A DNA stretch of 64,000 bases from Corallococcus coralloides DSM 2259 (GTDB taxonomy: Bacteria > Myxococcota > Myxococcia > Myxococcales > Myxococcaceae): positions 868,001-932,000 of the forward strand of contig NC_017030.1 in the NCBI RefSeq assembly GCF_000255295.1, in the 5' to 3' direction. Position numbers and translations under genes: made by a program. Positions within the stretch are counted from its first letter, which is position 1; each line of letters starts with the position of its first letter. Positions 8,358 to 47,917 of the stretch are shown one piece after another. Below the pieces are notes generated by a model. The model ran no database searches. It was given only the letters and a program-made list of their open reading frames with translations, and was not told where the DNA came from.

Positions 8358-10184
8358 TCAGGGCACGACAGGCCCGGACTCGTAGCCAATGTCCACGTTG
8401 TTGATCGTGGCCTGGCACGGACCGTTCCCGGCGGTCAGGTCCGCCTTCCAGCAGAGCTGATGGCCGCGAGTGCTGGACACGTCGAGCACGGCGTCCCGGT
8501 TCCAGTCGAACGTCACCGGATGCCAGGTGGGGGAGGGATTGGTGACGCACGTACCGGCGAGGCACACGCGGCAGTCGGTGGCCACCGAGTAGTTGATGGC
8601 GACCGGAGCGGCGCAGCTGGGGTCCTGGGCGTCGTCCTTGTGGATGTACACCTGTTGGATGGTGCAGCTGGGGGCCGCGGGGCTCAGCACGGTGGAGCGC
8701 ACGCGGCCGGCCGTGGGCGCCCAGTTGCGCAGCATGAAGACGACGTCGTTGAAGTCCCGGTCGCCTCCACCCGGCAGGTCCTCGAAGGCCAGGAGCCACC
8801 GGTCGGACGCGGGGCCCACGTTGCCCAGCACGGCGTGGGGCATGACGAGGTTGCCCGGCGCGGCGACGGTGGTGGCGGCCATGGGCAGGGTCGTGTTGCC
8901 GTAGGGCAGCGTCGCCAGGCGCTCCCGGGTCCAGTCATCCAACCACCCGCACATCTTCTGGGTGGTGCCGGCCAGGGTGCAGGCGTACCGGGACGAAGCG
9001 GGGGTGCAGGCTTCGTTGTAATCACAACCCATGTTCCGGGATACGACGGGGTTCTGGCCCATGAAGTCCTGATCCAGGTTCCACTTCGCCTTGGAGAAGA
9101 ACACGTTGAGGGGCGTCCTCAGGTGCAGCGTGCACTTGAGGTCGGCATCCCTGCGCAGGCAGGGGTAGACGGTGCCGTTGTCCGTGTTGTGGCTCGAGTC
9201 GAAGGCGGAGATGAGGAAGAAGACCACCTCCTGTCCGCCCGGGATGACGCCCAGGTCCACCGTGCGGTCATAGGTCGTGATGCCGGGATCCGGGTTGGAG
9301 GTCCGCGGACGGCCGTGGCTGTCATAGGCGGAGACGTCGTAGTCGGGGACGCCGTCGTTCAGGTCCATCACGTCCGTGACGGTGCCCAGCCCCTGGAAGG
9401 TGACCGTGTCGGAGTCGTCGTCCGTCAGCAGGAAGGCCAGGTGGCCGATGCCCATGTGGTTGTTGGACGCGTGCGCGGGCTCCAGCAGGTTGGGGATGCG
9501 CGTGAAGAGCCCGTTGTCCGAATAGCCGGTGCCGGCTGCTCCCGGCGGGCTGCTCCCGACGACGTCGACAGTGATGTTGTAGGAGGAGGAGGTGCGGCCG
9601 GGACGGGCATCCGTCAGGTCCGGGTGGGTGATGAAGGCCGAAGCGCAGGTCGCATTGAGCGCCAGGTCCGGCTGGCGGTAGCTGAAGCCACCGGACGTGA
9701 AGGTCCGGGAACAGCGGGGGCTCACGCCGATGTACGGGCGGGCCTGGGCTCCGGAGGGCGGGGCCAGGTTGTAGAGGTCCTCGTGCAGGTCCGCGACGCC
9801 GTTGCCATTGGCGTCCACCAGGTCACCCTGCGCGTTGACGTAGCCGCGTGCCCGCAGGTCGCTCATGTACAGGTAGCCCAGCGCGTGGCTCGCGCCGGCG
9901 CTTTCGTACACGAAGCTGATGGTGACGTTCTGGTCCGACGGGAACACGATGGAGTCCACCGAGGTCGGCGTCCAGAACGGGTTGACCGACCGCAGCGTCT
10001 TCTGCGGGGTGAGCGTCACCTGCTGGAGTTGGTCGAACCCCGCGGCGGTGAACGCGGGCTGCACGTCCTCATACAGGTCTCCGGGGCCGCAGGTGTCGGC
10101 CGCATGGGCCGGACGTGGCGAGGGAATGACAAACAACGCGCTCCCGGCCACGAGGGCCAGGAGACGGGAGGGATTCAGGGACAA
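8358..10184 (-). CDS. Secreted DUF4114-type protein, paralog 1
   Basis: The 608-residue protein starts at a TTG with GAGGAG 8 bases upstream. The first 28 residues are a signal peptide ending SPRPAHA. A first domain around residues 60-130 contains SIVFPSDQNVTISFVYESAG and SHALGYLYMSDL plus VDANGNGVADLHEDLYNLAP. A later domain contains LPGGGDRDFNDVVFMLRNW. The two signatures together are typical of DUF4114-containing surface or matrix proteins. Several Cys pairs lie near the C-terminus (DCRVCLAGTCV). Two paralogs follow upstream on the same strand. The role is unknown; a secreted, possibly calcium-binding, matrix component is a reasonable guess. Confidence 0.8.
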   Translation of the reverse strand: MSLNPSRLLALVAGSALFVIPSPRPAHAADTCGPGDLYEDVQPAFTAAGFDQLQQVTLTPQKTLRSVNPFWTPTSVDSIVFPSDQNVTISFVYESAGASHALGYLYMSDLRARGYVNAQGDLVDANGNGVADLHEDLYNLAPPSGAQARPYIGVSPRCSRTFTSGGFSYRQPDLALNATCASAFITHPDLTDARPGRTSSSYNITVDVVGSSPPGAAGTGYSDNGLFTRIPNLLEPAHASNNHMGIGHLAFLLTDDDSDTVTFQGLGTVTDVMDLNDGVPDYDVSAYDSHGRPRTSNPDPGITTYDRTVDLGVIPGGQEVVFFLISAFDSSHNTDNGTVYPCLRRDADLKCTLHLRTPLNVFFSKAKWNLDQDFMGQNPVVSRNMGCDYNEACTPASSRYACTLAGTTQKMCGWLDDWTRERLATLPYGNTTLPMAATTVAAPGNLVMPHAVLGNVGPASDRWLLAFEDLPGGGDRDFNDVVFMLRNWAPTAGRVRSTVLSPAAPSCTIQQVYIHKDDAQDPSCAAPVAINYSVATDCRVCLAGTCVTNPSPTWHPVTFDWNRDAVLDVSSTRGHQLCWKADLTAGNGPCQATINNVDIGYESGPVVP

Positions 10185-10273
10185 GGACAGACTCCTCGGG
10201 ATGAAGATGGCTCCCAGGGTCTATCAGAAATAACAAGGAAGGCGGTTCTGTCCGGCTGTGTCAGGCTTCACCC

Positions 10274-10603
10274 ATGAAGACGACCCGTCTCCCCCTGTTC
10301 CTGGTGCTGTCCCTGGCGGTTCCCCTCGCGGGCTGTTCGACGGCGCGGGCGACGTCGTACTCGCTGCCCATGGAGCGGGCCACGGAGTGCCGGCAGCTGT
10401 GCGAGCAGATCGACATGAAGATGAGCGCGGTGGTCATCATCATGAACTCCGCCGGCTGCGTCTGTGAGCCGAAGCCGGCGGAGGGGACGAACGCGGCGCT
10501 GACCGGTGCCGCCGCGGCGTCGGGCGGTGCCATCATCCGCGCCGCCGCGGACGCGGCGCAGCACGCGAACAACAACAACACCGCCACGACGCACAACCGC
10601 TAG
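10274..10603 (+). CDS. Small Cys-containing lipoprotein
   Basis: A 109-residue protein with a lipoprotein signal peptide (lipobox LAGC at about residues 18-21). The mature part has four more Cys in two pairs (ECRQLC and GCVC). Next comes an Ala/Gly-rich, weakly hydrophobic segment (AALTGAAAASGGAIIRAAAD) and an Asn/Thr/His tail. It is read opposite to the flanking DUF4114 genes and stops 6 bp before the end of paralog 2. It shares a divergent promoter region of 89 bp with paralog 1. It is probably an outer-membrane lipoprotein of unknown function. Confidence 0.7.
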   Translation: MKTTRLPLFLVLSLAVPLAGCSTARATSYSLPMERATECRQLCEQIDMKMSAVVIIMNSAGCVCEPKPAEGTNAALTGAAAASGGAIIRAAADAAQHANNNNTATTHNR

Positions 10604-10609
10604 CCGCTG

Positions 10610-12760
10610 TCAGGGGACCAGGGGCACGGAGGTGTAGCCCACGTCCACGAAGTGGAGGGTGGGCTGGCAGGAGGGGTCCGTCCCCTGCGTCAGCTCGGCC
10701 TTCCAGCAGAGCTGCTGGCCCGGCGTGCTGGAGACGTCCACGGTGGCCCTGCCCGAGCCCGGAGGCAGCGACAGGGGGTGCCAGGTGGGCGTGGGGTTGG
10801 GGACGCACGTGCCCGCGCTGCACACGTTGCAGTCCGTGGCCAGCGCATAGGTGATGTAGGCGGCCGCGCCGGTGCAGATCCCGTACAGGTTGTCGAACTT
10901 GTTGAAGGACACCTGGGCAATCTTGCAGCTCGCGTCGTCCGGGCTGAGCACGCGCGAGCGCACGCGGCCCTCGGTCACGGCGCGCAGCAGGAAGACGACG
11001 TCGTTGAAGTCCCGGTCGCCTCCGCCCGGCATGTCCTCGAAGCCCATCAGCCACTGGCCCGTGGTCGTGAGGACCGAGTTCAGCAGGAGGTGCGGCATGT
11101 TGCCCTGGCCCTGCGCCCAGACCCCGGCGGCGGTCCTGGGCAGGACGATGTTGCCGTAGGGCGGCATCCGCAGGCGGTCGAGGGTCTCCGAGTCCAGCCA
11201 CCCGCACAGCCGCTGCGAGGAATTGGCCACGGTGCAGGCATAGGGGGAGGACTGGGGCGCGTCCGCGTTGCACTGCTCGGTATAGGCGCAGCCCAGGTTG
11301 CGCTGCGCCACGGGCATCAGGCCCACGGGGTCCTGGTCCAGGTTCCACTTCGACTTGGAGAAGAACACGTTGATGGGCGACTTCAGGTGCAGGAGGCACT
11401 GGCCGGTGGGCGCCTTGCGCAGGCACGGGTAGACCGTCTTCTGGTCCAGGTCGTGGATCGCCTGGTACTGGGTCACCAGGAAGAAGACGAGCTCCTTGCC
11501 CGCCGGAATGGTGCCCAGGTCCACGGTGCGGTCGTTCGGGGTGACGCCTGGATCCGGATTGACGGGGCGCAGGATGCCGTGGGCGTCGTAGCGGGAGACG
11601 TCGTAGTCCGGGATGCCTTCCGCGAGGTTGCCGATGTCCGCGACGACGCCCAGCTGGTTGAAGGTCGTCTGGTCGGAGTCGTCGTCCGTCAGCAGGAACA
11701 CCAGGTGCCCCAGGCCCAGCTGGTTGTTCGTCGGGTGGGCGGGCTCCAGCAGGTTGGGGATGCGCGGATACAGGCCCAGGTCCGACCAGGCGTTGGCGCT
11801 GGGCGCGGTGCTTTCCGTGGGGGTGGCGCCGACGACGTCCACCGGCAGGAGCGGGTGCGTGCCGGGCCGGGCATCCGGAAGGGATTGCCGGACGAAGGCG
11901 CCGCTGCAGGTGGCGTTGAGCGCCAGGTCGGGCATGCTGAGGCTGACGCCCTGCGAGATGAAGCTGCGGGCGGGCAGACAGCGGCGGTTCGTGCCGATGT
12001 ACGGACGCGCCTGGGGCCCCGTGGTGGGGGCCAGGTTGTAGAGGTCCTCGTGCAGGTCCGCGATGCCGTTGCCATTGGCATCCACCAGCGTGTCATCCGA
12101 CGAGTCCTCCGGCGTGCCCTGGGTGTTCACGTAGCCGCGCGCGACGAGGTCGTCGTAGTACACGTAGCCGAGCGAATGGCTGGCGCCCGCGGACTCGTGG
12201 ACGAAGGTGAGCGCCAGGTGTTGATCGTTGAGGAACATGATGCGCTCGCTGGACAGCTGCCCCAGGTAGGGGTTCAGGCTAATCGGGCCCCCGGGCGTGA
12301 GCGCCACGTTCGTGAGCTCGTCGAAGCCCGACGCCGTGAAGTCCGGCTGGTGGTCGATGTCCAGCGACTGCGTGAAGTCGAAGTCGAACAGCGCCTGCGT
12401 GGACAGCCCGTACCCGTTGGTCACGGTGCCCAGCACCTGGGGCGGGCCGTTCGCCAGACACTGAGGCGCGGTCCACTCCAGGGTGCTGGAGCTGGCGTCC
12501 GATACCGGCGTGCCGGACGTGCCCGTGGTGGCGCTCCAGGAGAAGGTGAGCGGACTGCCCTGCGGGTCCGTGGCCTGGAGCTGGAGCTGGGACAGGTCGC
12601 CCGGGTGGACGGCGGCCGTGGACTGCGTGGCGCTGGTGAGCTGCGGCGGCAGGTAGACCGCCCTGGGCGTGAACTCCGCGTGGGCCGGACGCGGCGAGGC
12701 AATGACACACACGGCGCTCCCGGCCACCAGGGCCAGGAGCGGGAAGCGATTCAGGTGCAA
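10610..12760 (-). CDS. Secreted DUF4114-type protein, paralog 2
   Basis: The start is placed at the TTG giving MHLNRFPLLALVAGSAVCVI, which aligns with the signal peptide of paralog 1; the reading frame continues open to 13096 but that part overlaps paralog 3 and shows no homology. The 716-residue protein has a signal peptide ending SPRPAHA. It carries an extra N-terminal Ig-like segment (LQLQATDPQGSPLTFSWSAT) absent from paralog 1, then the HLALTFVHESAGASHSLGYV domain with VDANGNGIADLHEDLYNLAP. The GGGDRDFNDVVFLLRAV domain and a C-terminal Cys-rich part (DCNVCSAGTCV) follow. It very likely arose by tandem duplication with paralogs 1 and 3. Confidence 0.78.
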   Translation of the reverse strand: MHLNRFPLLALVAGSAVCVIASPRPAHAEFTPRAVYLPPQLTSATQSTAAVHPGDLSQLQLQATDPQGSPLTFSWSATTGTSGTPVSDASSSTLEWTAPQCLANGPPQVLGTVTNGYGLSTQALFDFDFTQSLDIDHQPDFTASGFDELTNVALTPGGPISLNPYLGQLSSERIMFLNDQHLALTFVHESAGASHSLGYVYYDDLVARGYVNTQGTPEDSSDDTLVDANGNGIADLHEDLYNLAPTTGPQARPYIGTNRRCLPARSFISQGVSLSMPDLALNATCSGAFVRQSLPDARPGTHPLLPVDVVGATPTESTAPSANAWSDLGLYPRIPNLLEPAHPTNNQLGLGHLVFLLTDDDSDQTTFNQLGVVADIGNLAEGIPDYDVSRYDAHGILRPVNPDPGVTPNDRTVDLGTIPAGKELVFFLVTQYQAIHDLDQKTVYPCLRKAPTGQCLLHLKSPINVFFSKSKWNLDQDPVGLMPVAQRNLGCAYTEQCNADAPQSSPYACTVANSSQRLCGWLDSETLDRLRMPPYGNIVLPRTAAGVWAQGQGNMPHLLLNSVLTTTGQWLMGFEDMPGGGDRDFNDVVFLLRAVTEGRVRSRVLSPDDASCKIAQVSFNKFDNLYGICTGAAAYITYALATDCNVCSAGTCVPNPTPTWHPLSLPPGSGRATVDVSSTPGQQLCWKAELTQGTDPSCQPTLHFVDVGYTSVPLVP

Positions 12761-34796: not shown

Positions 34797-36326
34797 ATGG
34801 GCACCGACGACCTCCTCGCTCACACAGTCCTGTCCGAATCGGGTGACGCCGTGACCGACGGTGGCGGAGCTCCGGTCGTGATGTCGCCGGCCGGACAGGA
34901 GGCCCAGGAAGGCGCGGTGCTGGGCAACTACCAGCTGGAGAAGCTCCTGGGCGAAGGGTCCATGGGCCGCGTGTTCCAGGCGCGGCACGTGCGGCTGGGG
35001 CGCCAGGTGGCGCTCAAGGTCCTCAAGCCGGAGCACGCGCGGGACAGCTCGTTCGTGCAGCGCTTCTTCCAGGAGGCGCGCACCGTCAATCAGATCAACC
35101 ACGAGCACATCGTGGAGGTCTTCGACTTCGTGGACGAGTCGCCCGACGGGCACGTCTACTGCGTGATGGAGCTCTTGCGCGGGCAGAGCCTGGCGGCGCT
35201 CCTGAAGGAGGAGGGGCTGACGCTGGAGCGCGTGCAGCGCATGGGCGTGCAGGTGTGCGCGGCGCTGGGCGCGGCCCACCAGGTGGGCGTGGTGCACCGG
35301 GACATCAAGCCGGACAACCTCTTCATCACGCAGCGCTCCGGGCAGCAGGACTTCGTGAAGGTGTTGGACTTCGGCGTGGCGAAGCTCATCACCACTCAGA
35401 CGGGCGTGAGCCTCACCGGCACGCTGGACGGGACCATCATCGGCACGCCGGCGTACATGGCGCCGGAGCAGGCCGCGGGGCTGCCGGTGGACGCGCGCGC
35501 GGACATCTACGCGGTGGGCAACATCCTCTACGAGATGCTCTCCGGCCACCCGCCATTCCAGGCGCCGGCCTTCGGGCAGCTGGTGGTGCAGATCATCACC
35601 CAGCAGCCGCCGCCGCTGCCGTCGCACCTGCCTTCGGGCGAGCGCGTGCCGCCGGAGCTGGCGCAGCTGGTGATGCGCTGCCTGGCGAAGGAGCCGGAAG
35701 GACGTCCCCAGCAGCTGGCGGAGGTCACCACGGCGCTGCTCCTGATGCCCACCGCGCCGGCCGCTGAGCCGCGCACCGAAGCGCTGGTGGTGGAGGAGGC
35801 GGAGCGGCCCACCCTGCGCATGCGCGTGCCGGGCCTCCTGCGCTCCCGGCGGCTCCAGGTGTCCGTGGGGCTGGCGGCGCTCGCGCTGGTGTCCGGCATC
35901 ACCACGTGGAACGGGCTGCACTCGATGCGCGCCTCCCATGCCGAACAGGCTCCGGCGGTGGCGTCCGCCACGGAAGCGGCCGCGCAGGGGACACCGGCGG
36001 CGGGCGCGGCGGACGCGGTGACGCTCACGGTGAACTCGTCGCCGCCGGGCGCGAAGGTGGTGCGCGTGGACACCGGCGAGGAGCTGGGCGTCACGCCGCT
36101 GACGAAGGCGCTGAGCCGGCAGGCGGTGCCGCCGCAGCTGCGCGTGGAGCTCGCGGGCTACGTTCCGTTGGAGCGGGCGGTGGAGCTGAAGCAGGATGCC
36201 GCCGCCGCGGAGCTGTCCGTGCCGCTGGTGAAGGCGAGCGCGGGGCCGCGCCGAGCCCCCGCGCGTGCGCCGGGCCGCAAGGGAGGAAGCCGGGATGCGG
36301 TCATTGATCCGTTCGCGGCGCAGTGA
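34797..36326 (+). CDS. Ser/Thr protein kinase with PEGA-like C-terminal domain
   Basis: The 509-residue protein has a Hanks-type kinase domain. It shows the glycine loop LGEGSMGRVF (about 51-60), the ATP-binding Lys in VALKVLKPEH (about 74), the catalytic loop VVHRDIKPDNLFI (about 165-177), DFG in KVLDFGVAKL (about 191) and the APE motif. A single transmembrane helix follows at about residues 355-375 (LQVSVGLAALALVSGITTW). The C-terminal part, TLTVNSSPPGAKVVRVDTGE, resembles a PEGA surface-protein repeat. All catalytic residues are present. The last 32 bp overlap the next gene. Confidence 0.93.
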   Translation: MGTDDLLAHTVLSESGDAVTDGGGAPVVMSPAGQEAQEGAVLGNYQLEKLLGEGSMGRVFQARHVRLGRQVALKVLKPEHARDSSFVQRFFQEARTVNQINHEHIVEVFDFVDESPDGHVYCVMELLRGQSLAALLKEEGLTLERVQRMGVQVCAALGAAHQVGVVHRDIKPDNLFITQRSGQQDFVKVLDFGVAKLITTQTGVSLTGTLDGTIIGTPAYMAPEQAAGLPVDARADIYAVGNILYEMLSGHPPFQAPAFGQLVVQIITQQPPPLPSHLPSGERVPPELAQLVMRCLAKEPEGRPQQLAEVTTALLLMPTAPAAEPRTEALVVEEAERPTLRMRVPGLLRSRRLQVSVGLAALALVSGITTWNGLHSMRASHAEQAPAVASATEAAAQGTPAAGAADAVTLTVNSSPPGAKVVRVDTGEELGVTPLTKALSRQAVPPQLRVELAGYVPLERAVELKQDAAAAELSVPLVKASAGPRRAPARAPGRKGGSRDAVIDPFAAQ

Positions 36327-37141: not shown

Positions 37142-37681
37142 TCAGCGCTGCGGCGGTGGCGGTGCGGCGGCCTGCGCCAGCACCTGCGCGGCGATGCGGC
37201 CGATGCGCGCGTGGAACGATGGAGCGTCGTGGAAGGTGAGGCGCACGTCGCCCACCTTCAGCTCGTCGCCCGTGCGCAGGAGGCGCGGCTGCTCCGCCTC
37301 CAGCGCTTCGCCGTTCACCGTCACGGGCCGGGACTGCGCCAGCCGCTCCACCTTCCAGCCGCCGTCCGGCGTGGGGTGCAGGGCGAACTGCTCGCGCGAC
37401 ACCGTGGCGTCGTTGACCACGAAGGTGTTGTGCGACGCGCGCCCCAGCTTCAGGGGGCCGCGGTCCGCCACCCCCATCAGCTCGAAGCACAGCGCGTCGC
37501 CCGCGGGCAGGCAGTCGCGCAGGTCCATCATGGGCAGCCGCGTGGCCGCCACGTTCTGCTCCTCGGGGACGTTCCACGCGCCCGCCTCCCACACCAGCCA
37601 CGCGTGCGGGTACTTGGCGTTGAACTTCTCCTGGAGTGCCATGTGCTGCCGGATGAGCAGCGAGAGCAACAGGGCTCGCAT
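37142..37681 (-). CDS. FHA domain protein
   Basis: The start at 37681 (MRALLLSLLIRQHMALQEKF) replaces a longer frame whose added 53 residues show no homology. The 179-residue protein carries a forkhead-associated domain in its C-terminal half. Visible motifs are GPLKLGRASHNTFVVNDATV, SREQFALHPTPDGG, and WKVERLAQSRPVTVNGEAL with a final strand LKVGDVRLTF. FHA domains bind phosphothreonine, so partners are probably Ser/Thr kinases such as those nearby. It converges on the TPR gene, with a hairpin (37061-37068/37075-37082) between them. Confidence 0.83.
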   Translation of the reverse strand: MRALLLSLLIRQHMALQEKFNAKYPHAWLVWEAGAWNVPEEQNVAATRLPMMDLRDCLPAGDALCFELMGVADRGPLKLGRASHNTFVVNDATVSREQFALHPTPDGGWKVERLAQSRPVTVNGEALEAEQPRLLRTGDELKVGDVRLTFHDAPSFHARIGRIAAQVLAQAAAPPPPQR

Positions 37682-37770
37682 GGCCCAGTCATAACCCCAT
37701 CCGCCGCTTTCGCGTCGCCCTTGCGGCTTTCCAGGTGTCCACGAGTGGGCGAAAGGGCCGGCCCGAAAGG

Positions 37771-38625
37771 CTACAACCGTGCAACGACAGCCCTGGCCAT
37801 CCGCTCCGCCGCGCCCGCGTCCATGGGCAGGAAGAGGCACGGCTCCGTCACCTCCACCTCCTGCAGCCGGGTGCGCCCTTCGTTGTCCGTGGCCACGTCC
37901 ACGCGCGCGTACAACAGCCGCGCGCCTCCGGACGCCTCCATCACCTCGTGCGCCAGCCGCGCTTCCGCCGCGTTGTCCGGCGTGAAGCCGTGCGGCTCCG
38001 CGAAGCCCCGGGGCGCGGTGGTCAGCGTGGGAGGGCGGCGCACCGCGTGGCTGAAGACGCCGTTGAAGAAGATGTACGAGCGCTCGCCCTCCGTCTCGAA
38101 GGCGCGCAGGTAGGGCTGCACCATCACGTCGCCCTCCTTCGCCAGCTCCGCCACCTTCACGCTCGCGTCATCCCACTGCTCGCGCCGGACGATGAAGACC
38201 TTGAGCCCGCCCGCCGCCACCGCGGGCTTGAGCACGACCGCGTCCCAGCCGCGCTCGCGCGCCGTCGCCGCCACGTCCAGCGTCCCGCCGGGCGGCACCC
38301 AGACGGTGGGCGTCAAGGGCAGGCCGCGCGCCTCCAGCGTCTTCAAGTAGCCCTTGTGCGTGTTCCACCGGAGCACGTCCGCGGGGTTGAACAGCCGCGT
38401 GACGCTCCCCACGCGGTCCGCCCAGGCGACGAACTCCTCGCGGCGCAGGTGGCTGTCCCAGGCGTTGCGCACCACCGCCGCGCGGACGCGGCTCCAATCC
38501 ACGGTGGGGTCATCCCAGATGACCGGCCGCGCCTCCAGGCCCAGCGCCTGCAGCGCGGGCACCAGCGGCGCGTCCAGCGGGTTCATCTGCGGCAGTCCGG
38601 CGTAGGTGATGACGGCGATGTCCAA
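37771..38625 (-). CDS. ATP-grasp superfamily protein
   Basis: The 284-residue protein resembles the glutathione-synthetase/RimK type of ATP-grasp enzymes. Its N-terminal Rossmann-like lobe (DIAVITYAGLPQMNPLDAPL, VIWDDPTVDWS, AVVRNAWDSH) precedes the grasp region: TRLFNPADVLRWNTHKGYLK, AVVLKPAVAAGGLKVFIVRR, VMVQPYLRAFETEGERSYIF and, near the end, LLYARVDVATDNEG, RLQEVEVTEPCLFLPMDAGA, with Mg2+-binding Glu residues. It probably ligates a carboxylate to an amine or thiol using ATP. Its substrate is unknown. Confidence 0.83.
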   Translation of the reverse strand: MDIAVITYAGLPQMNPLDAPLVPALQALGLEARPVIWDDPTVDWSRVRAAVVRNAWDSHLRREEFVAWADRVGSVTRLFNPADVLRWNTHKGYLKTLEARGLPLTPTVWVPPGGTLDVAATARERGWDAVVLKPAVAAGGLKVFIVRREQWDDASVKVAELAKEGDVMVQPYLRAFETEGERSYIFFNGVFSHAVRRPPTLTTAPRGFAEPHGFTPDNAAEARLAHEVMEASGGARLLYARVDVATDNEGRTRLQEVEVTEPCLFLPMDAGAAERMARAVVARL

Positions 38626-38704: not shown

Positions 38705-40312
38705 TCACGCCAGGCGCGCGAGCCCCGGCTTCCCCACGGCCGCCGTCTCCACGGTCTCCTGCGTCAGTTGCTCCGCCAGCGTCTTCGCCTCGCGCGCCAC
38801 CCGCCCCAGCTCGCCCTGGCCGTGAGGGAAGGGGGCCGCGGGGCCCTCCAGCGCCAGCAGCTGCTGCCGCAGCGCCGCGCCGTTGGGGGTGCGCTTCGCC
38901 GGGTCCTTCTGCAGCAGCTGCATGACGATGAGGTCCAGGGCCAGCGGCACCGCGGGGTTGAGCTGCGAGGGCGGGACGACCTCCTGGTCCACCGCCGCGC
39001 GCAGCAGCACCTCTTCCGAGTGGCCGCTCAGCGCGCGCCGGCCGGTGAGGGCCTCGTGCAGCGTGAGTCCCAGGGCGAAGAGGTCCGCACGCCCGTCGAT
39101 GTCCTGGCCCATGGCCTGCTCCGGCGCCATGTAGCCCAGCTTGCCGCGCACGCTGCCCGCCACCGTGAGGTTGGCGCGCACCGCGTCCCGCGCGATGCCG
39201 AAGTCCGACAGCTTCACCTCGCCAATGCGCGACACCAGGATGTTGGGCGGGTTCAGGTCGCGGTGGACCAGCCGCAGGGGCACGCCGTCCGCGCTGGTGC
39301 GCCGGTGCAGGTAGTCCAGCGCGGACGCCAGCTCCGCGGCCAGGAACGTCGCGGCGGACAGGGGCAGGGGCCGGCGGTTCTGCGGCTTGAGCAGCGCGCT
39401 CAGGGGCAGCCCGTCCACGTACTCCATGGCCAGGAAGTAGGTGCCGCCGTGGCGGCCCAGGTCGAACACCTGGACGATGTTGGGGTGGTAGAGCGACGAG
39501 CACAGCTCCGCCTCGCGCCGGAACATGGTCACGAACGCCGCGTCGTCCGCGTACGACGGCAGGATGCGCTTCAGGGCCACCTGCTTCTCGAAGCCGCCCT
39601 CCGGCGAGTACGTGGCCCGGTACACCTCCGCCATGCCGCCCGCGCCCACGCGCTCATGCAGCACGTACTTGCCCATGACCTCCTGTTCGCGCAGCGCCGC
39701 GAGCGCGCTCCGCGTGCGCTCCAGGAAGTGCCGCGCCAGCGTCGCCGTCAGCGCGCCCGTGGCCACGAAGAAGAACGCGCGCACGCAGATGAACAGCGGC
39801 GCCAGTGTAACGAGCGGCTCCTCCGGCAACAGCGGCCGCACGAAGCCGAAGTAGAGCGCCAGGTACTCCGCCGCCACCAGCGCGCCCGCGGCCAGCCCCA
39901 GGCGCGGGTTGCTGCGCAGGCCCGCCAGCGTCACCAGCGTGCCCCAGATGACCAGCGTGGGCGCGGTGAGCGCGTAGACCGGACCCTTGAAGTGCAGGTC
40001 GAACGCCAGCACCACCGCGGGGATGCTCACTTCAATGAAGACGTTCAGCCACGGGATGGCCGGGTGGAACGCGCCGGAGCGCAACACCCACCACATGCAG
40101 CCGTAGTAGCCCGACAGCACCGTGGACAGCCCCATCAGCGCGAGCGTCAGGTCCCAGCCCATCGCGGGCCCCAGCGCCGCGGCCACCACCACGCAGATGG
40201 CGGACAGGATGCTCATGAAGCGCGCCACTGACAGCTCGCGGGCCTGCGCGTCCCGTCGCAGGTGCGCGTCCAGGAAGCGCGACACGGTGCTGGATGGATT
40301 CCGGGTGATCAT
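38705..40312 (-). CDS. Membrane Ser/Thr protein kinase with multi-pass N-terminus
   Basis: The 535-residue protein has about six hydrophobic helices in residues 30-205 (for example SILSAICVVVAAALGPAMGW and LFICVRAFFFVATGALTATL). A kinase domain follows: VGAGGMAEVYRATY, VALKRILPSYADD, MEYVDGLPLSALL, LVHRDLNPPNILVS, VKLSDFGIARD, GYMAPEQAMGQDIDGRADLF. The catalytic loop reads HRDLNPPN, with Asn where the Lys of HRDxKxxN normally stands; several myxobacterial kinases share such loops, so activity is still possible. The membrane part could sense a signal. It stands alone. Confidence 0.9.
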   Translation of the reverse strand: MITRNPSSTVSRFLDAHLRRDAQARELSVARFMSILSAICVVVAAALGPAMGWDLTLALMGLSTVLSGYYGCMWWVLRSGAFHPAIPWLNVFIEVSIPAVVLAFDLHFKGPVYALTAPTLVIWGTLVTLAGLRSNPRLGLAAGALVAAEYLALYFGFVRPLLPEEPLVTLAPLFICVRAFFFVATGALTATLARHFLERTRSALAALREQEVMGKYVLHERVGAGGMAEVYRATYSPEGGFEKQVALKRILPSYADDAAFVTMFRREAELCSSLYHPNIVQVFDLGRHGGTYFLAMEYVDGLPLSALLKPQNRRPLPLSAATFLAAELASALDYLHRRTSADGVPLRLVHRDLNPPNILVSRIGEVKLSDFGIARDAVRANLTVAGSVRGKLGYMAPEQAMGQDIDGRADLFALGLTLHEALTGRRALSGHSEEVLLRAAVDQEVVPPSQLNPAVPLALDLIVMQLLQKDPAKRTPNGAALRQQLLALEGPAAPFPHGQGELGRVAREAKTLAEQLTQETVETAAVGKPGLARLA

Positions 40313-40550: not shown

Positions 40551-43500
40551 ATGCGCAGCTCCCCCCGTCTATTGCTGGCCGCCCTGGGCGCGGTCCTTCT
40601 ATTGGGCAGTGCCTGCAGTTCAGATCCAGAGGTCAATGCGGTCTGCGGTGACGGAAAGAAGGAAGGCGCCGAGCAGTGCGATGACGGCAACACCCGAGGG
40701 GGAGACGGGTGCGAAGCGAACTGCACCCTGCCGGGGGCGAAGTGCGGTGACGGCGTCAAGGCACCCACGGAGGCGTGCGACGACGGCAACACCACGGGAG
40801 GCGACGGGTGCGAGGCGGACTGTACCGTCACCACCCAGCAGACGGTCCAGTGTTGGGCCACGCCTCCCGCGCCGCTCGCGAACGGCGCCACCTGTGAGGT
40901 GACGAAGGCGGGCACGGCGGGCAAGCTCTTCACGGGCATCGTCCTCAAGGATGGCCAGACGCTGGTGGGCGGCCAGGTGCTGGTGGACGCGCAGGGCGTC
41001 ATCACCTGCTCCGAGTGCGACTGCTCGAAGGCGGCGGGCGCCGCGGAGGCCACGGTGGTGACGTGCCCCACGGGCGTCATCTCCCCGGGCCTCATCAACC
41101 CGCACGACCACCTCACCTTCCCGGGCTCGCCCCTGGCCAGCACCAGCGTGGAGCGCTACGAGCACCGCCACGACTGGCGCGAGGGCAAGAACAGCCACAC
41201 CAAGCTGGAGAACAGGTCCAACTCGAAGGCGGACGCGATCCGCTGGTCGGAGCTGCGCCAGGTGATGGCGGGCACCACCGCCATCGCGGGCGCGGGCGGG
41301 CAGGCGGGACTCCTGCGCAACATGGACACGGGCGGCAGCGCGGGCATCGCGAACCAGGAGGGCCTGGGGATGCCGTACGCGGACTCGGACACCTTCCCGC
41401 TGGGTGACAGCACCGGCAACACCCTGGCGGACAGCTGCTCCTACTCCTCGTTCCCGTCCTCGGCGACCATCACCGGGCGCACGTCCGCGTACCTGCCGCA
41501 CATCGCGGAGGGCATCGCGGCCACGGCTCAGAACGAGTTCCGCTGCCTGTCCACGGGCGGCGGCAACGTCCTGTTCCCGCGCTCGGCCATCATCCACGGC
41601 GTGGGCCTGACCGCCCGGGAGATTTCAGAGATGGCGGCGCACGGCACCGGCCTCGTCTGGTCGCCGCGCTCCAACATCTCGCTGTACGGCGACACGGCGA
41701 TGGTGACGGCCTACAAGCGGCTGGGCGTGTCCATCTCCCTGGGCACGGACTGGATCCGCTCCGGCTCCATGAACCTCCTGCGCGAGCTGGCGTGCGCGGA
41801 CCACCTCAACACCACGCGCTACGCCAAGACCTTCACGGACGAGGACCTGTGGCGCATGGTGACGGCCAACGCCGCGGACGCGGTGGAGGTCTCCTCGCGC
41901 CTGGGCCGCATCGCCCCGGGCAAGATGGCGGACCTGGCCATCTTCCGCGTGGGCGCGAACGCGGCCTCGCCGTTCCGCGCGGTCATCACCGCGCAGCCGG
42001 CGGACGTGGTGCTGACGGTGCGCGGCGGCAAGCCGCTCTACGGCGACCAGGCGCTGGTGGACGGCCTCAAGGGCACGGACGCGTGCGACGCGCTGGACGT
42101 GTGCGGCACCCAGAAGGCCGCGTGCGTGAAGTCGGAGATTGGCCAGACGCTGGCGGAGTTCCAGGGCTCCGCGGACACCCGGAACCTCTACCCGCTGTTC
42201 GCGTGCGGCACGCCGGCGAACGAGCCCACCTGCGAGCCTTCGCGCAGCGCGGTGAACACCAGCTTCCCGGTGGCCGCCGTCAACGGCTCCACCGTCTACA
42301 CGGGCGTGGCGAGCGCGGCGGACGCGGACGCGGACGGCATCGAGGACTCCGCCGACAACTGCCCCACCATCTTCAACCCCGTGCGCCCCATGGACAACGA
42401 GCGGCAGCTGGACACGGATGGCGACGGCGTGGGTGACGCGTGCGACCCGTGCCCCCTGGAGGCCGGCACCACCGCGTGCCAGGCCTTCCGCGGCGAGGAC
42501 GACGACCACGACGGCGTGGCCACCTGGAAGGACAACTGCCCCTTCGTGGCCAACGCGGACCAGAAGGACACGGACGGCGACGGCAAGGGCGACATGTGCG
42601 ACGGCTGCCCGAATGACGCGGCCTCGTGCTCGGTCGCCGACCCGTCCGACTTCGACTACGACGGCGTCGCCGCCCCTGGCGACAACTGCCCGCTCGTGGC
42701 CAACCCGGACCAGAAGGACACGGACGGCGACGGCGTGGGTGATGCGTGCGACTCGTGCCCGGGGACCATCCTCGCCGGCGGCGTGTGCGCCACCAGCGTC
42801 TACGACGTGAAGGCGACGCCCCGCTTCGGCAACCTGTCGCTGGTGAACGGGAAGGTGGCGGTGGACGACGTGGTGGTGACCGCGGTGGATGCGAAGGCGG
42901 ACCGCGGCTACTGGGTGCAGGTGGCGAACTACCCGGCCGGCAAGGGCGCGGAGGACTCCGGCCTCTTCATCTACAGCCTCAAGTCCGACGTCGCGGTGGG
43001 CGACAACATCCGCGTGGAGGGCACGCTGAAGGAGTACTTCGGCCTGCTGGAGGTGATTGACGGCAAGGTGACGAAGCACAGCGCGGCCAACCCGCTGCCG
43101 GCCCCGGCGGTGGTGCGCACGGAGGACATCCGCACCAACGGCCCGAAGGCGAAGGCGCTGGAGGGCGCGCTGGTGGAGGTCCGCAACGTCTTCAACACCC
43201 GCCTGGAGAACGACAAGCGCGAGTTCATCGTGGACGAGAACAAGGCCGGCGACCCGGCGTCCTCGGGCCTGATGGTGGATGACCAGGCCTTCTCCTATGC
43301 CCCGCAGGTGCTGGGCACGGAGTACACCACGCTGCGCGGCGTGCTCACGTTCACCTTCAGCGACCACAAGCTGCTGCCCCGGAGCGCGGCGGACATGGTC
43401 ATCCCGCTGCCGCCCCTGCCGGCGCTGACGGGCTTCACGTCCGGCGGCTTCGTGCGCGTGGGCGGCACCCAGGCGATTCCGCAGCGCCTCACCGTGACGA

Positions 43501-45158
43501 TGGCGAAGGCCTACCCGGTGGACGTCACCGTGACCATCGGCTCCAGCGACGCGGCGGCCCTGTCCGCGGCGGGCGGGCAGGTGGTGATTCCGGCCGGCCA
43601 GACGAGCGCCACGGTGGCGCTGGAGGCGAAGGCGGTGGCGGCCTCGGTGACCCTCACCGCGACGCTGGGCACGTCCTCCCAGACGACCGCGCTGCGCGTG
43701 CTGGGTGAGACCGAAGCGGCCAGCATCACGGACCTCACCCCTGCGACGGTGGGCGTGGCGCCGGGCGGCACGGCGCGCTTCACCGTGACGTTCGACCGGC
43801 CGGTGCCGGCCGGCACCCCGCTGGACCTGGAGGTGACGCCCGCGAGCTTCGGCTCCATCACGGCCCGGGCCGTGACGACGGACGCGCTGACGGCCACCTT
43901 CGACCTGACCGTGGACGAGGCCAGCACCGGCTCCGGCACGGTGACGCTGGGCACGCTGAGCGCCACGGTGAACGTCATCACGAACATGCCTCGGCTGGTG
44001 TCGCTCACCCCGTCCACCGCCACGGTGAACGCGGGCGCGGCCCAGGTGTTCACGGTGACGCTGGAGTACGCTCCGACGGAGCCCGTGCAGGTGCTGCTGG
44101 CGCTGACCTCGCCGGCCACGCCCTTCGGCACGCTGGCCGCCACGTCGGTGACGGTGGGCGCGGGCGCGACGACGGCGACGGTGACGTTCACCGCCGCCGC
44201 GGAAGGGGAGGGGACGGGCAGGGTGTCCGCTTCGCTCAACGGCATCACGCACTCCGCGGAGCTGACCGTGCTGCCTCCTCCCGCGAAGCTCGCCAGCGTC
44301 ACGCCGGACACGGTGACGGTGACGGTGGGCACGACGCAGACGTTCACCGTCACGCTGGACCGCAAGGCCCCCGCGGGCGGCGCGGCCGTGGAGGTGGCGT
44401 TCAGGCCCGCGGAGCTGGGCTCGCTGGCGGACTCGACGGTGACGGTGCCGGAAGGTCAGACGACCGCGACCTTCGTCTTCACCGCCACGGAGGCCACGGG
44501 CGAAGGCCAGCTCACCGCGTCCTACCGGGGCGTGACGAAGGAGGCGGCCGTGACGGTGGCCCCGCCCCAGGGCCACGTCGTCATCAGCGAGTTCTGCGGC
44601 GGCACCTCCGAGAACGCGTCGGACGAGTTCATCGAGCTCTACAACCCCACGAACGTGGAGGTCGACATGAGCGGCTGGAAGATCCAGTACCGGGCCGCGG
44701 GCGCGACCTCCAAGTACGGTCAGTCCGCCGAGCTGCCCCAGGGCGCGAAGATCAAGGCGCACGGCTACTACCTGCTGGTCGGCAGCGCCTACTCCCTCGC
44801 GGTGGAGAAGGACGCGTCGTATTCGTTCAACACGTCCGCCAGCACGTCGGGCGGCGGCCACGTCCGCTTGGGCACGGCCGCCATCGGGCAGGAGGACAAC
44901 GACGCGAATGCCATCGACACCCTGGGCTACGGCACGGGCGCGGCTCCTGAAGGCGGCCACGCCGCGCCGGCGCACCCCGCGTCCGGCGGCAGCCTGGAGC
45001 GCAAGGCCCGGGCGTCCTCCACCTCCGCCACCATGGGCGTGGGCGGCGCGGACGAGTTCGCCGGCAACGGCCAGGACACGGACGACAACGCGGCGGACTT
45101 CGTGCAGCGCACGACGCGCCAGCCGCAGAACTCGTCGAGCCCCACCGAGACGCCGTAG
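40551..45158 (+). CDS. Giant lipoprotein with amidohydrolase, TSP3 and lamin-tail domains
   Basis: The start at ATG 40551 follows AGGAGG by 4 bases. The 1535-residue protein is a lipoprotein (lipobox LGSAC, Cys at about residue 21). Next come two Cys-rich DUF4215-type repeats with [12 protein letters not shown] and [12 protein letters not shown]. An amidohydrolase domain of TRZ/ATZ-deaminase type follows at about 110-520. It has metal ligands in HDH (185-187), His in LPHIAEG (317), His in IIHGVG (349) and Asp in GTDW (400). Then come thrombospondin type 3 calcium repeats (about 591-750), an OB-like domain, beta-sandwich repeats, and a lamin-tail domain (about 1342-1480). An intact enzyme tethered outside is implied; the substrate is unknown. 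Confidence 0.88.
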
Positions 45159-45293: not shown

Positions 45294-45938
45294 TCAGCCC
45301 AGGGGGCCGCGCACGTGGAGGCCGCCGGAGAGGATTTGATCCAACGACGCCATCAGCGGGTCGTAGTTCACCATGCCGCGGTACAGGTTGTGGTGCAGCA
45401 GGATGCCCAGGTAGCCGCCCATCATCGTGTGGGCCATGTGCAGCGGGTCCACCTCCTGGCGGAACTCATTGCGCTTCTGGCCGAAGCGGATCATCCCCGC
45501 CAGCACCGCCACGTAGAGGGAGATCTTCTCGCGCAGCGCCTCCGCCACGCGGTCGTTGGACTCCGCGGACTCGGCGGACAGCATCCCGAAGAAGATGCCG
45601 TATTCGCGGTGGTAGCGCAGGAACTGGGACGTGCGCGACACCACGAACACCAGCTGCTCCCGGCCGGACAGGATGCGGCGCTCGGCGAGCAGCGGCGCGA
45701 ACTCCATCAGGTAGCGCTGGTGCAATTCCTCGATGGCCGCCAGGAGCAGGTCTTCCTTGGTGGGGAAGTGCCAGTAGAGCGCGCCCGGTGTCATCCGGAT
45801 GGCTTTCGCCAGGTCCGACATCGTCGTCGACAGGTAGCCCCGCCGAGCGAACAACGTGATGGCGGCCTCCAGGATTTCGACCCGCGTTCGCGCGGCCCGT
45901 TCCTGTTTGATTTCGCGCTTCGCTGGTTCCTTGCTCAT
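45294..45938 (-). CDS. TetR/AcrR family transcriptional regulator
   Basis: The 214-residue protein has a TetR N-terminal DNA-binding domain (ILEAAITLFARRGYLSTTMS, DLAKAIRMTPGALYWHFPTK, EDLLLAAIEE) with the recognition helix MTPGALYWHF, and a helical ligand-binding domain. The gene lies 19 bp downstream of the metallophosphoesterase gene on the same strand. Its target and inducer are unknown. A self-binding operator could lie in that short gap, but no clear palindrome was seen. Confidence 0.88.
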   Translation of the reverse strand: MSKEPAKREIKQERAARTRVEILEAAITLFARRGYLSTTMSDLAKAIRMTPGALYWHFPTKEDLLLAAIEELHQRYLMEFAPLLAERRILSGREQLVFVVSRTSQFLRYHREYGIFFGMLSAESAESNDRVAEALREKISLYVAVLAGMIRFGQKRNEFRQEVDPLHMAHTMMGGYLGILLHHNLYRGMVNYDPLMASLDQILSGGLHVRGPLG

Positions 45939-45957: not shown

Positions 45958-47214
45958 TCACGCCAGGAGCGTCACCTTAACGATTTCAGACGGCGCGGCG
46001 ACGCGCAGGGGCGGGCCCCAGAAACCGGTGCCTCGGCTGACATAGAGGTGGTTGTCGCCGTCCTGAAAGAGACCGGCGTCGTGTTTCCAAATTGCTGAGA
46101 CGGCGAGGGTGAACGGAAAGAACTGTCCGCCGTGAGTGTGTCCGGACAGTTGCAAGCCCATTCCCGCCTTCGCCGCCACATCCCAATTGGATGGTTGGTG
46201 CGCGAGCAGCACCGCGGCGCGGTCTGGATTCCGGCCCTGGATGGCGGCGTCCAGGTTGTAACCCTTGGGGCCGTTACGCATGGACCAGTCGTCCACGCCC
46301 ACCATGTCGAACGCGCCGCCCGCGTCTCCAATCGTCACGTGACGGTTGCGCAACACGGTGATGCCCAGGCCGGTGAGCGCGTCCGCCCAACTGCTGGCGT
46401 TCCAGTAGTACTCGTGGTTGCCGGTGATGAAGTGCGTGCCCGCGCGCGCCTGGAGGTTCTGGAGCGCGGCGACGGAGTGGCGCAGGTCCGCCACCGTGCC
46501 GTCCACCAGGTCGCCGGTGATGGCGACCAGGTCCGGCTTGAGCGCGTTGGCCCTCCGCACCAGCTCGTCCATGAAGCGCCGCTGGATGATGGGGCCCACG
46601 TGGATGTCGCTCATGTGGACGATGGTGAAGCCATCCAGCGCCTTGGGAAGGCCGGGCAGCCGCACCGCGACCTCGTTGACCACGGGCGGATGGAAGGCGC
46701 TCCACATGCCGTAGCCGGTGAGGCCCCCCGCCGCGAGCACCGCGCCGCCCGCGGTGGCCCGCGAGAGGAACAACCGGCGCGCTTCATCCACCGGGGGCAC
46801 GGCGGGAGGCGGGGGCGGCACCGTGACGGCCAGGTCCGCCAGCGACGGCGGCGTGGCGGGGTCCGGCGCGGGCGTGGCGAGCGGCGCGGCGACGCCCCGG
46901 TGCCCGCGCGTGCGCGCCACGAGCCATCTCACCGCGCCCAGCAGCGCCAGGGAGAGCAGCAGGTAGACGGCGACGCCCATCCACGTCCACGCGAACACGG
47001 CGACGATGAACGCGGAGGGGATGATGCGCGTCACCACCCAGGACAGGAGCAGCGGCACGCACAGCGCCGTCAGCAGCACCTTGCCGGCGGTGCGCCAGGC
47101 GCGGTTCGTGGACGTGTCGCGGAAGAGGCGCCGGTACAGGTAGACGTGGACGTAGACCGACGCGACGCTGACGAGGAGGATGAACAGGATGATGCGCAAC
47201 GGGCTTTCCACCAT
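45958..47214 (-). CDS. Membrane-bound metallophosphoesterase, YkuE/YaeI-like
   Basis: The start at ATG 47214 gives MVESPLRIILFILLVSVASV; a longer frame adds 55 residues of no homology. The 418-residue protein has about four transmembrane helices in residues 5-110. A Pro-rich linker and another hydrophobic helix follow (LSRATAGGAVLAAGGLTGYG, resembling a Tat-like segment). The calcineurin-like domain reads VHMSDIHVGPI, AITGDLVDGTVADL, FITGNHEYYWNASS and LSGHTHGGQFFPF. All metal ligands are present. YaeI/YkuE enzymes act on phosphodiesters or lipid precursors; here the substrate is unknown. Confidence 0.88.
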   Translation of the reverse strand: MVESPLRIILFILLVSVASVYVHVYLYRRLFRDTSTNRAWRTAGKVLLTALCVPLLLSWVVTRIIPSAFIVAVFAWTWMGVAVYLLLSLALLGAVRWLVARTRGHRGVAAPLATPAPDPATPPSLADLAVTVPPPPPAVPPVDEARRLFLSRATAGGAVLAAGGLTGYGMWSAFHPPVVNEVAVRLPGLPKALDGFTIVHMSDIHVGPIIQRRFMDELVRRANALKPDLVAITGDLVDGTVADLRHSVAALQNLQARAGTHFITGNHEYYWNASSWADALTGLGITVLRNRHVTIGDAGGAFDMVGVDDWSMRNGPKGYNLDAAIQGRNPDRAAVLLAHQPSNWDVAAKAGMGLQLSGHTHGGQFFPFTLAVSAIWKHDAGLFQDGDNHLYVSRGTGFWGPPLRVAAPSEIVKVTLLA

Positions 47215-47317
47215 GGGAGGCCCATCCTCGCGCGCACGCGCCACGGCGCAACCGGCATGCGCGTGAAGAAGCGTGAAGCGGGCTTCCGAGCCTGGGAGCC
47301 CCGTGTCCGGCGCCTGG

Positions 47318-47917
47318 CTACTTCCGGTGGGTGCCCAGCGCGGCGCCGATCTGCTGCCACTCCTGGGCGTAGGTGCCACGGGAGAAGGCGCGCAGGTCGT
47401 CGCCGGTCACCGTGCCGCGGGAGAGCGCCGTGTCGAGCGCCTTCACGATGGCGTTCTTGTGTGGCTGCTCCACGTACGGGTTGTCCTCGCGGAAGACCTC
47501 GCCGAAGAGCGTCTCCAGGCGGCCGTCCTGCTTCAGCCGCTCCACGATGCGGTTCTGCGACACGGGCGCGTCCGCGTGCGCGTGCAGCATGGCGGAGGCG
47601 ATGCCGCTCTGCGCGTCCGCGTCCGGGAACTCCGCCAGCAGCCCCAGCTCCATGTCCGCCTGGGCGATGGACTCCGCGTCCGCCGGAGAGACCGGGGCCT
47701 TCACGGCCTGCGTCTGCGCGGGCGTGGGGCGCGTGGGGGCGGGGCGCGCGGGCTCGAAGTCGCTGCGGCCCTGGAAGGAGCGCACGTTGGCGTTGGCGGG
47801 CGTCCGGCCTTGGGCTCCCGGCTTGCTGTCACGCGTGGCGTCGCTCCGCTCGGACCGCTCGAACTCAGAGCGCTTCGGGGGAATGGACGGGCGATTGCCA
47901 CCATCGACGCGAGACAT
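47318..47917 (-). CDS. Hypothetical protein, disordered N-terminus
   Basis: The start is placed at the Met of MSRVDGGNRPSIPPKRSEFE; a Met 19 codons upstream is less likely. The 199-residue protein has a long low-complexity N-terminal half rich in Pro, Arg, Ser and Ala, and a helical C-terminal half (SIAQADMELGLLAEFPDADA, RIVERLKQDGRLETLFGEVF). No signal peptide or known domain is visible. Confidence 0.6.
   Translation of the reverse strand: MSRVDGGNRPSIPPKRSEFERSERSDATRDSKPGAQGRTPANANVRSFQGRSDFEPARPAPTRPTPAQTQAVKAPVSPADAESIAQADMELGLLAEFPDADAQSGIASAMLHAHADAPVSQNRIVERLKQDGRLETLFGEVFREDNPYVEQPHKNAIVKALDTALSRGTVTGDDLRAFSRGTYAQEWQQIGAALGTHRK

Follow-up and report, generated by a model that had tools for sequence, protein, structure and literature searches.

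Myxococcus xanthus DK1622 possesses a 'metal dependent amidohydrolase', MXAN_0886, that is listed as enriched in vesicles, where it exceeds its level in membranes more than 65-fold; MXAN_0889, a protein with RCC1 repeats, is listed as vesicle-specific (Berleman et al. 2014, PMC4158809). In the parts of that paper covered here MXAN_0886 is named together with its enrichment, and no fusion, family or function is described for it. A second paper (PMC3222651), in the parts covered, places a further amidohydrolase of M. xanthus, MXAN0075, in the extracellular matrix. The DNA analyzed here (the window) is a stretch of 64,000 nucleotides from Corallococcus coralloides DSM 2259 (NC_017030.1, positions 868,001 to 932,000), whose genome is a single contig of 10,080,619 bases, and at 40551-45158 of its forward strand it carries a gene for a large lipoprotein-like protein in which an amidohydrolase domain is joined to modules typical of surface proteins. 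The nearest structural matches of this domain (4gbd, 4f0r, 4dzh, TrzN/AtzA and guanine deaminase, all of the TRZ/ATZ group) are enzymes that we take to be cytosolic. The domain shares with them its fold over about 350-365 residues and its aligned metal and catalytic residues, whereas identity to them is about 16-21%, and the window protein differs in its predicted export, its 12 conserved cysteines and its fused surface modules. The data suggest that this enzyme very probably works outside the cell, and we lean slightly towards the reading that it is an exported hydrolase, anchored to the outer membrane and its vesicles, that most likely deaminates a nitrogen heterocycle derived from prey or matrix. 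The gene and its parts are as follows.

40551-45158, forward strand: whole gene for a predicted amidohydrolase-TSP3-OB-LTD lipoprotein of 1535 residues (sequence, Pfam, homologue comparison)
40551-40616, forward strand: putative signal peptide with lipobox-like LGSA before Cys22, the putative acylation site (sequence; N-terminal pattern in homologues)
40641-40823, forward strand: two acidic Cys-rich repeats, myxo_disulf_rpt / DUF4215 (Pfam, NCBIfam)
40842-42170, forward strand: amidohydrolase domain, residues 98-540 (AlphaFold model, Foldseek, VIA, profile alignment)
41103-41111, forward strand: HxH metal ligands H185 and H187 (alignments)
41499-41510, forward strand: HxxE, with H317 and the catalytic E320 (alignments)
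41595-41597, forward strand: H349, beta 6 (alignments; Gln in 2 of 131 domains)
41748-41750, forward strand: D400, beta 8, in GTDW (alignments)
42312-42761, forward strand: thrombospondin type 3 (TSP3) repeats of the calcium-binding type (Pfam)
42765-43454, forward strand: conserved module, residues 739-968, its first half modelled as an OB fold (model pLDDT 92.4; Foldseek, VIA)
43458-44510, forward strand: repeat region, perhaps Ig-like beta sandwiches (sequence; matches below cut-off)
44562-44933, forward strand: lamin tail domain, LTD (Pfam; present in 31 of 36 proteins)

The open reading frame has no stop within its 1535 residues, and from the N- to the C-terminus it encodes a lipoprotein-type signal, two Cys-rich repeats, the amidohydrolase, TSP3 repeats, an OB-fold region, further repeats and a lamin-tail domain. 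Pfam matches above the curated cut-offs were DUF4215 (best stretch 64-91), Amidohydro_1 (344-494, which is the C-terminal half of the enzyme domain only), TSP_3 (best 621-671; 49.7 bits against a cut-off of 25) and LTD (1338-1461; 58.5 bits against 34.3), and the myxobacterial Cys-rich repeat also exceeded its NCBIfam cut-off. An earlier reading of the letters (the original prediction) had placed a catalytically complete amidohydrolase between Cys-rich repeats, TSP3 repeats, beta-sandwich repeats and a lamin tail on a surface-tethered protein. That architecture is confirmed, with the Cys-rich, TSP3 and lamin-tail modules scoring above their Pfam or NCBIfam cut-offs, except that the first half of residues 739-968 is better described as an OB fold than as beta-sandwich repeats and that residues 970-1320 are only putative beta-sandwich repeats. 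Overall this interpretation is partly supported, on the strength of the complete amidohydrolase, the genuine TSP3/LTD fusion and the signs of export.

For modelling of the enzyme domain the fragments or duplicates L019, L062 and L063 were excluded, and of 41 homologous domains L055 (cut by a contig end) and nine close congeners were left out, which gave an AlphaFold input alignment of 32. The model of residues 98-540 reached a pLDDT of 90.0 and a pTM of 0.92. Its best VIA match was 4gbd (Z 34.1, 2.6 A, 360 residues, 19% identity), and the top rows were methylthioadenosine (MTA)/S-adenosylhomocysteine (SAH) and adenosine deaminases (Z 32.6-34.1), followed lower down by isocytosine deaminase (Z 31.4), TrzN and AtzA (30-31), guanine deaminases (27-29) and imidazolonepropionases (26-27). 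The same enzyme groups ranked first with Foldseek. Profile alignment to 4f0r spanned profile positions 31-398, covering the N-terminal half that Pfam misses, and in the profile alignment to PDB sequences the HxH motif coincides with H185 and H187, HxxE (most clearly against AtzA) with H317 and E320, the conserved His that comes next with H349, and the Asp with D400. We presume that these four elements lie on beta 1, 5, 6 and 8, respectively. The motifs HDH, HIAEG, HGV and GTDW on which the original prediction relied are present and fall on the metal and catalytic residues of the modelled fold, and by this fold and these residues the domain belongs to the TRZ/ATZ group. Conservation was followed in 146 domains made up of best-scoring matches and chosen deeper ones rather than a random draw; the same genes entered from two collections, and removal of the duplicates left 131 distinct domains, in 127 of which all six catalytic and metal residues are intact. 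While this conservation is observed, the mechanism is carried over from the family: a metal held by H185, H187, H317 and D400, with E320 and H349 as acid and base, would activate water as in the adenosine, guanine and triazine enzymes.

Export of the enzyme is suggested first by its cysteines. Twelve cysteines of the enzyme domain are each kept in 26 or 27 of 27 fused domains. A TSP3 motif was found downstream of the enzyme in 114 of the 131 distinct domains (simple pattern), and of these 114 TSP3-bearing domains 99 have all twelve cysteines and 113 have at least ten; three of the 17 domains without the motif also have all twelve and are probably fused too. The paralogues L058, encoded in the same genome, and L061 each contain two cysteines in the aligned domain, which fall on none and one of the twelve positions, respectively. 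Standalone lipoprotein-like forms have one to six of the twelve, and one standalone form (L057) has 12 cysteines in total. Since the fused domains keep the twelve and the cytosolic paralogue has none of them, disulphides formed outside the cytoplasm fit this pattern, and up to six of them would hold the enzyme domain together there. The second indication is the N-terminus, which is lipobox-like in 55 of 80 named loci by a simple pattern, several of them with stricter boxes; among the loci missed by the pattern are frames truncated at the 5' side and L074, the copy of M. xanthus, in which the signal is LLFHAGC. In M. xanthus, lipoproteins with Lys at +2 tend to be in the inner membrane and those with Ala at +7 in the matrix, according to the covered parts of PMC3222651, and the predicted mature N-terminus of the window protein, CSSDPEV, has neither. 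Judged from sequence, a lipoprotein-type signal would lead to export with anchoring through Cys22, and export together with an intact catalytic site is well supported.

Where the exported enzyme would reside is suggested by M. xanthus. Downstream of the homologue of the window gene in M. xanthus AM003 (L074), Pfam identifies genes for a TetR regulator, a metallophosphoesterase and, last, a protein with RCC1 repeats. If this last gene is MXAN_0889, then counting back one gene each makes the homologue MXAN_0886, so the orthologue is probably the vesicle-enriched metal dependent amidohydrolase described above, and the hydrolase would be carried on the outer membrane and shed vesicles. The probable M. 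xanthus counterpart had already appeared in a proteome list, and although it is concentrated in vesicles according to the covered parts of PMC4158809, it is uncharacterized in the papers found. MXAN_0886 is not named in the covered main text of PMC9548883 or PMC5857379, and a search by this tag found no further literature, although newer locus tags could hide other reports; nothing was found for MXAN_0882 to 0885, 0887 and 0888. The RCC1 protein itself (L074:12720-13299) lies three genes downstream of the amidohydrolase, and if it is the MXAN_0889 of the partly covered vesicle study, two vesicle proteins are near neighbours.

The likeliest reaction would be a hydrolytic deamination, with a small nitrogen heterocycle of the matrix or of lysed prey as the substrate. 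In view of the structural neighbours and the predatory vesicle context, a nitrogen heterocycle released by prey lysis is the simplest guess, with roughly even odds against other hydrolyses.

Several points weigh against the reading of an exported, vesicle-borne deaminase. Close to the top deaminases in the VIA comparison stand uncharacterized amidohydrolases that are nearly tied with them (3hpa and 3lnp, Z 32.5, and TM0936, Z 32.4). No named deaminase family was reached, and hence no named function can be applied: the best NCBIfam match, 8-oxoguanine deaminase, scored 60.6 bits where the cut-off is 532. Four standalone homologues had similarly low scores with the curated models. Assignment of a substrate from curated families was rejected, as every match was far under its cut-off, and on present evidence the domain is outside all named deaminase families. 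The pocket motif PHAPYT of 4f0r has no visible equivalent in the domain, where the aligned stretch is TFPLGDS at low alignment confidence; its apparent absence is a hint only. No metabolic neighbour was recognized among the 23 most widely shared neighbour clusters, which were inspected without Pfam, so a partner could be overlooked. The assignment of the M. xanthus orthologue is based on gene order and annotation. In 14 listed genomes from the same family, some of which are 99-100% complete, the enzyme domain has no match at E 1e-20, so the enzyme is dispensable. Finally, LLLGSAC fits a loose lipobox pattern and misses the strict one, L-[AST]-[GA]-C (PMC3222651, covered in part), at -3. The proposal of a surface-tethered enzyme is well supported in its location, to which the cysteine pattern, the lipoprotein-like N-terminus and the vesicle enrichment of the syntenic M. 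xanthus gene product all point.

The alternative that survives best is that the exported enzyme is active but no deaminase, and that the bond it hydrolyses is instead an amide, a lactone, a halide or the like; a signal molecule or an antibiotic made by a competitor could be its target. The fold is shared by atrazine chlorohydrolase, imidazolonepropionase and formiminoglutamate hydrolase, each of which is found among the structural matches, and the failure of every curated deaminase model also fits this alternative. However, the rows with the highest Z are adenosine and MTA deaminases, though at 19-21% identity and nearly tied with the uncharacterized proteins, and we regard a non-deaminase as possible, but as the second choice.

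It is improbable that catalysis has been lost and that the enzyme domain now only provides structure or binds a ligand within a surface protein. Four of the 131 distinct domains depart from the six-residue pattern: two have Gln for H349, two residues are changed in the deep copy L195 (a misalignment may be the cause), and the fourth is truncated by the end of its contig. The first three are what such a loss could look like, but a structural role alone is unlikely because the metal site is conserved over wide divergence, as the remaining 127 domains show. The Gln copies are L035, which groups with Archangium in the tree, and L087 from Archangium violaceum; a second copy of A. violaceum (L088) is not among the exceptions, and one copy may be losing or changing its activity.

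The preferred reading of an active exported enzyme can be carried one step further, and this is more tentative: the fused, disulphide-held lineage, widespread in the Myxococcota, may perform a dedicated extracellular small-molecule reaction on vesicles or matrix, such as nucleobase deamination or the disarming of a prey or kin signal, with the OB and lamin-tail modules holding the enzyme on extracellular DNA or matrix where prey lyses.

The fusion recurs among the homologues. It was found in all 15 congeners searched, at 71-83% identity and in a single frame in 14 of them. Full-length proteins were compared in a set of the window protein and 35 others hand-picked from the 80 named loci, each with no more than 260 residues retained on the N-terminal side of the domain, and among these 36 proteins Pfam detected TSP_3 in 36, Amidohydro_1 in 35, LTD in 31 and DUF4215 in 21. 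Faulty annotation or assembly could in principle have joined two adjacent genes into one reading frame, for which the half coverage of the enzyme domain by Pfam and the two frames in one congener might be cited. This has a negligible chance and was rejected, since the frame is undivided in 14 of 15 congeners and also in further families and TSP_3 is present in 36 of 36 proteins. In the one congener that differs, a single-contig genome (G006:C1:2946317-2950824; L019 and L062), the gene is in two overlapping frames, which could be a frameshift or a sequencing error. When 193 evenly drawn Myxococcota genomes were searched with the enzyme domain at E <= 1e-20, fused and standalone forms being counted together, 125 had a match, strong in 118 of them, and 68 had none; in the other seven of the 125 the best match was merely 1e-20 to 1e-22 and may be another amidohydrolase.

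A tree of 68 of the 146 domains was built by a quick method in which L197 was labelled standalone by its length despite two TSP3 motifs, and the tree was not rerun. With L197 included among the fused rows, these all share a single branch (SH-aLRT 99). When the plasmid rows serve as the root, seven shorter Myxococcota proteins that lack TSP3, six of which have a lipobox-like pattern, branch off next to the fused group, and outermost are forms without an evident signal, including the paralogue L058 and plasmid-borne proteins of Proteobacteria. No recognizable description of the fused family was found in a literature search on amidohydrolases with lamin tail, thrombospondin, myxobacteria and vesicles, although subscription papers were mostly outside that search, and a phylum-wide, fused, cysteine-rich and exported lineage apart from a cytosolic branch was not met in the literature searched. 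If the reading is true, nucleoside-deaminase-like chemistry takes place outside the cell in a predatory phylum, and MXAN_0886, in a tractable laboratory strain, is a single gene in which the function can be tested directly.

The paralogue (L058:6531-8489, reverse strand; G000:C1, about 2.759 Mb) has the same catalytic residues, none of the 12 cysteines and, by eye, no signal peptide. Among the plasmid relatives, a distant one without an evident signal on plasmid pCB3060_4 of Rhizobium sp. CB3060 (L211, 6965-8518) adjoins genes at L211:8546-9955 and 9980-10819 that match PADLOC PD-T7-1 and RmrT, and AbiH and a DEAD/DEAH helicase are encoded close by; others lie near S8 peptidase genes (L213) and near HNH and Fic genes (L212). 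The plasmid relatives are possibly the amidohydrolase component of defence islands. A defence function was rejected for the proteins themselves, as PADLOC matched neither the window protein nor its paralogue, nor any of four plasmid relatives.

The C-terminal half was analyzed by the same means. In the well-modelled region of residues 739-968 (pLDDT 92.4) VIA matched proteins such as MCM, Ten1, RPA and AsnRS at Z 9.9-12.1, in rows that cover mainly the first half, and Foldseek gave E-values of 1e-3 to 3e-2 only. These proteins presumably share the OB fold, and by the model the first half of the region is an OB fold. Residues 970-1320 reached no Pfam cut-off and gave sub-threshold matches only. 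The window protein also resembles the extracellular nucleases ExeM/NucH, in that residues 775-878 and the LTD match ExeM-type models under the cut-off (at 775-878 the NCBIfam score is far under it), but no nuclease domain was found in the window protein with Pfam or NCBIfam. Through its TSP3 repeats it resembles MtsC, a MYXO-CTERM protein of cell-cell cohesion (77.8 bits against an NCBIfam cut-off of 350), which presumably lacks the enzyme domain and the lipobox-like N-terminus of the window protein. The C-terminal lamin-tail module is not confined to the enzyme, because two other lipoprotein-like proteins of the genome (1665 and 631 aa by their open frames) share it at 48-56% identity. An interchangeable chassis with differing enzymes was rejected, as these two proteins have no Pfam catalytic domain, only LTD, Ig/fn3-like and accessory beta domains; this check covered these two of the LTD-bearing frames of the genome, so the idea is only partly tested. 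The TSP3 repeats would form a calcium-stabilized stalk, and the OB, repeat and LTD modules would place the enzyme on matrix or vesicle surfaces.

Two genes follow that of the enzyme in the window, as they do in M. xanthus.

45294-45938, reverse strand: convergent TetR-family regulator (similar frame in 19 further of the 80 loci)
45958-47379, reverse strand: metallophosphoesterase, a synteny marker shared with M. xanthus (Pfam, neighbour comparison)

Neighbours were compared by blastp of the frames around the 80 named loci, and in this comparison no operon partner was recognized. The frames shared with further loci were a kinase-like frame (29 loci), the TetR regulator (19) and the metallophosphoesterase (15), and many other clusters were antisense frames of GC-rich genes. 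Just upstream of the gene in the window are two Ser/Thr kinases and an FHA protein (38705-40312, reverse; 34797-36326, forward; 37142-37840, reverse), and the M. xanthus copy, too, is preceded by genes for a kinase and an FHA protein.

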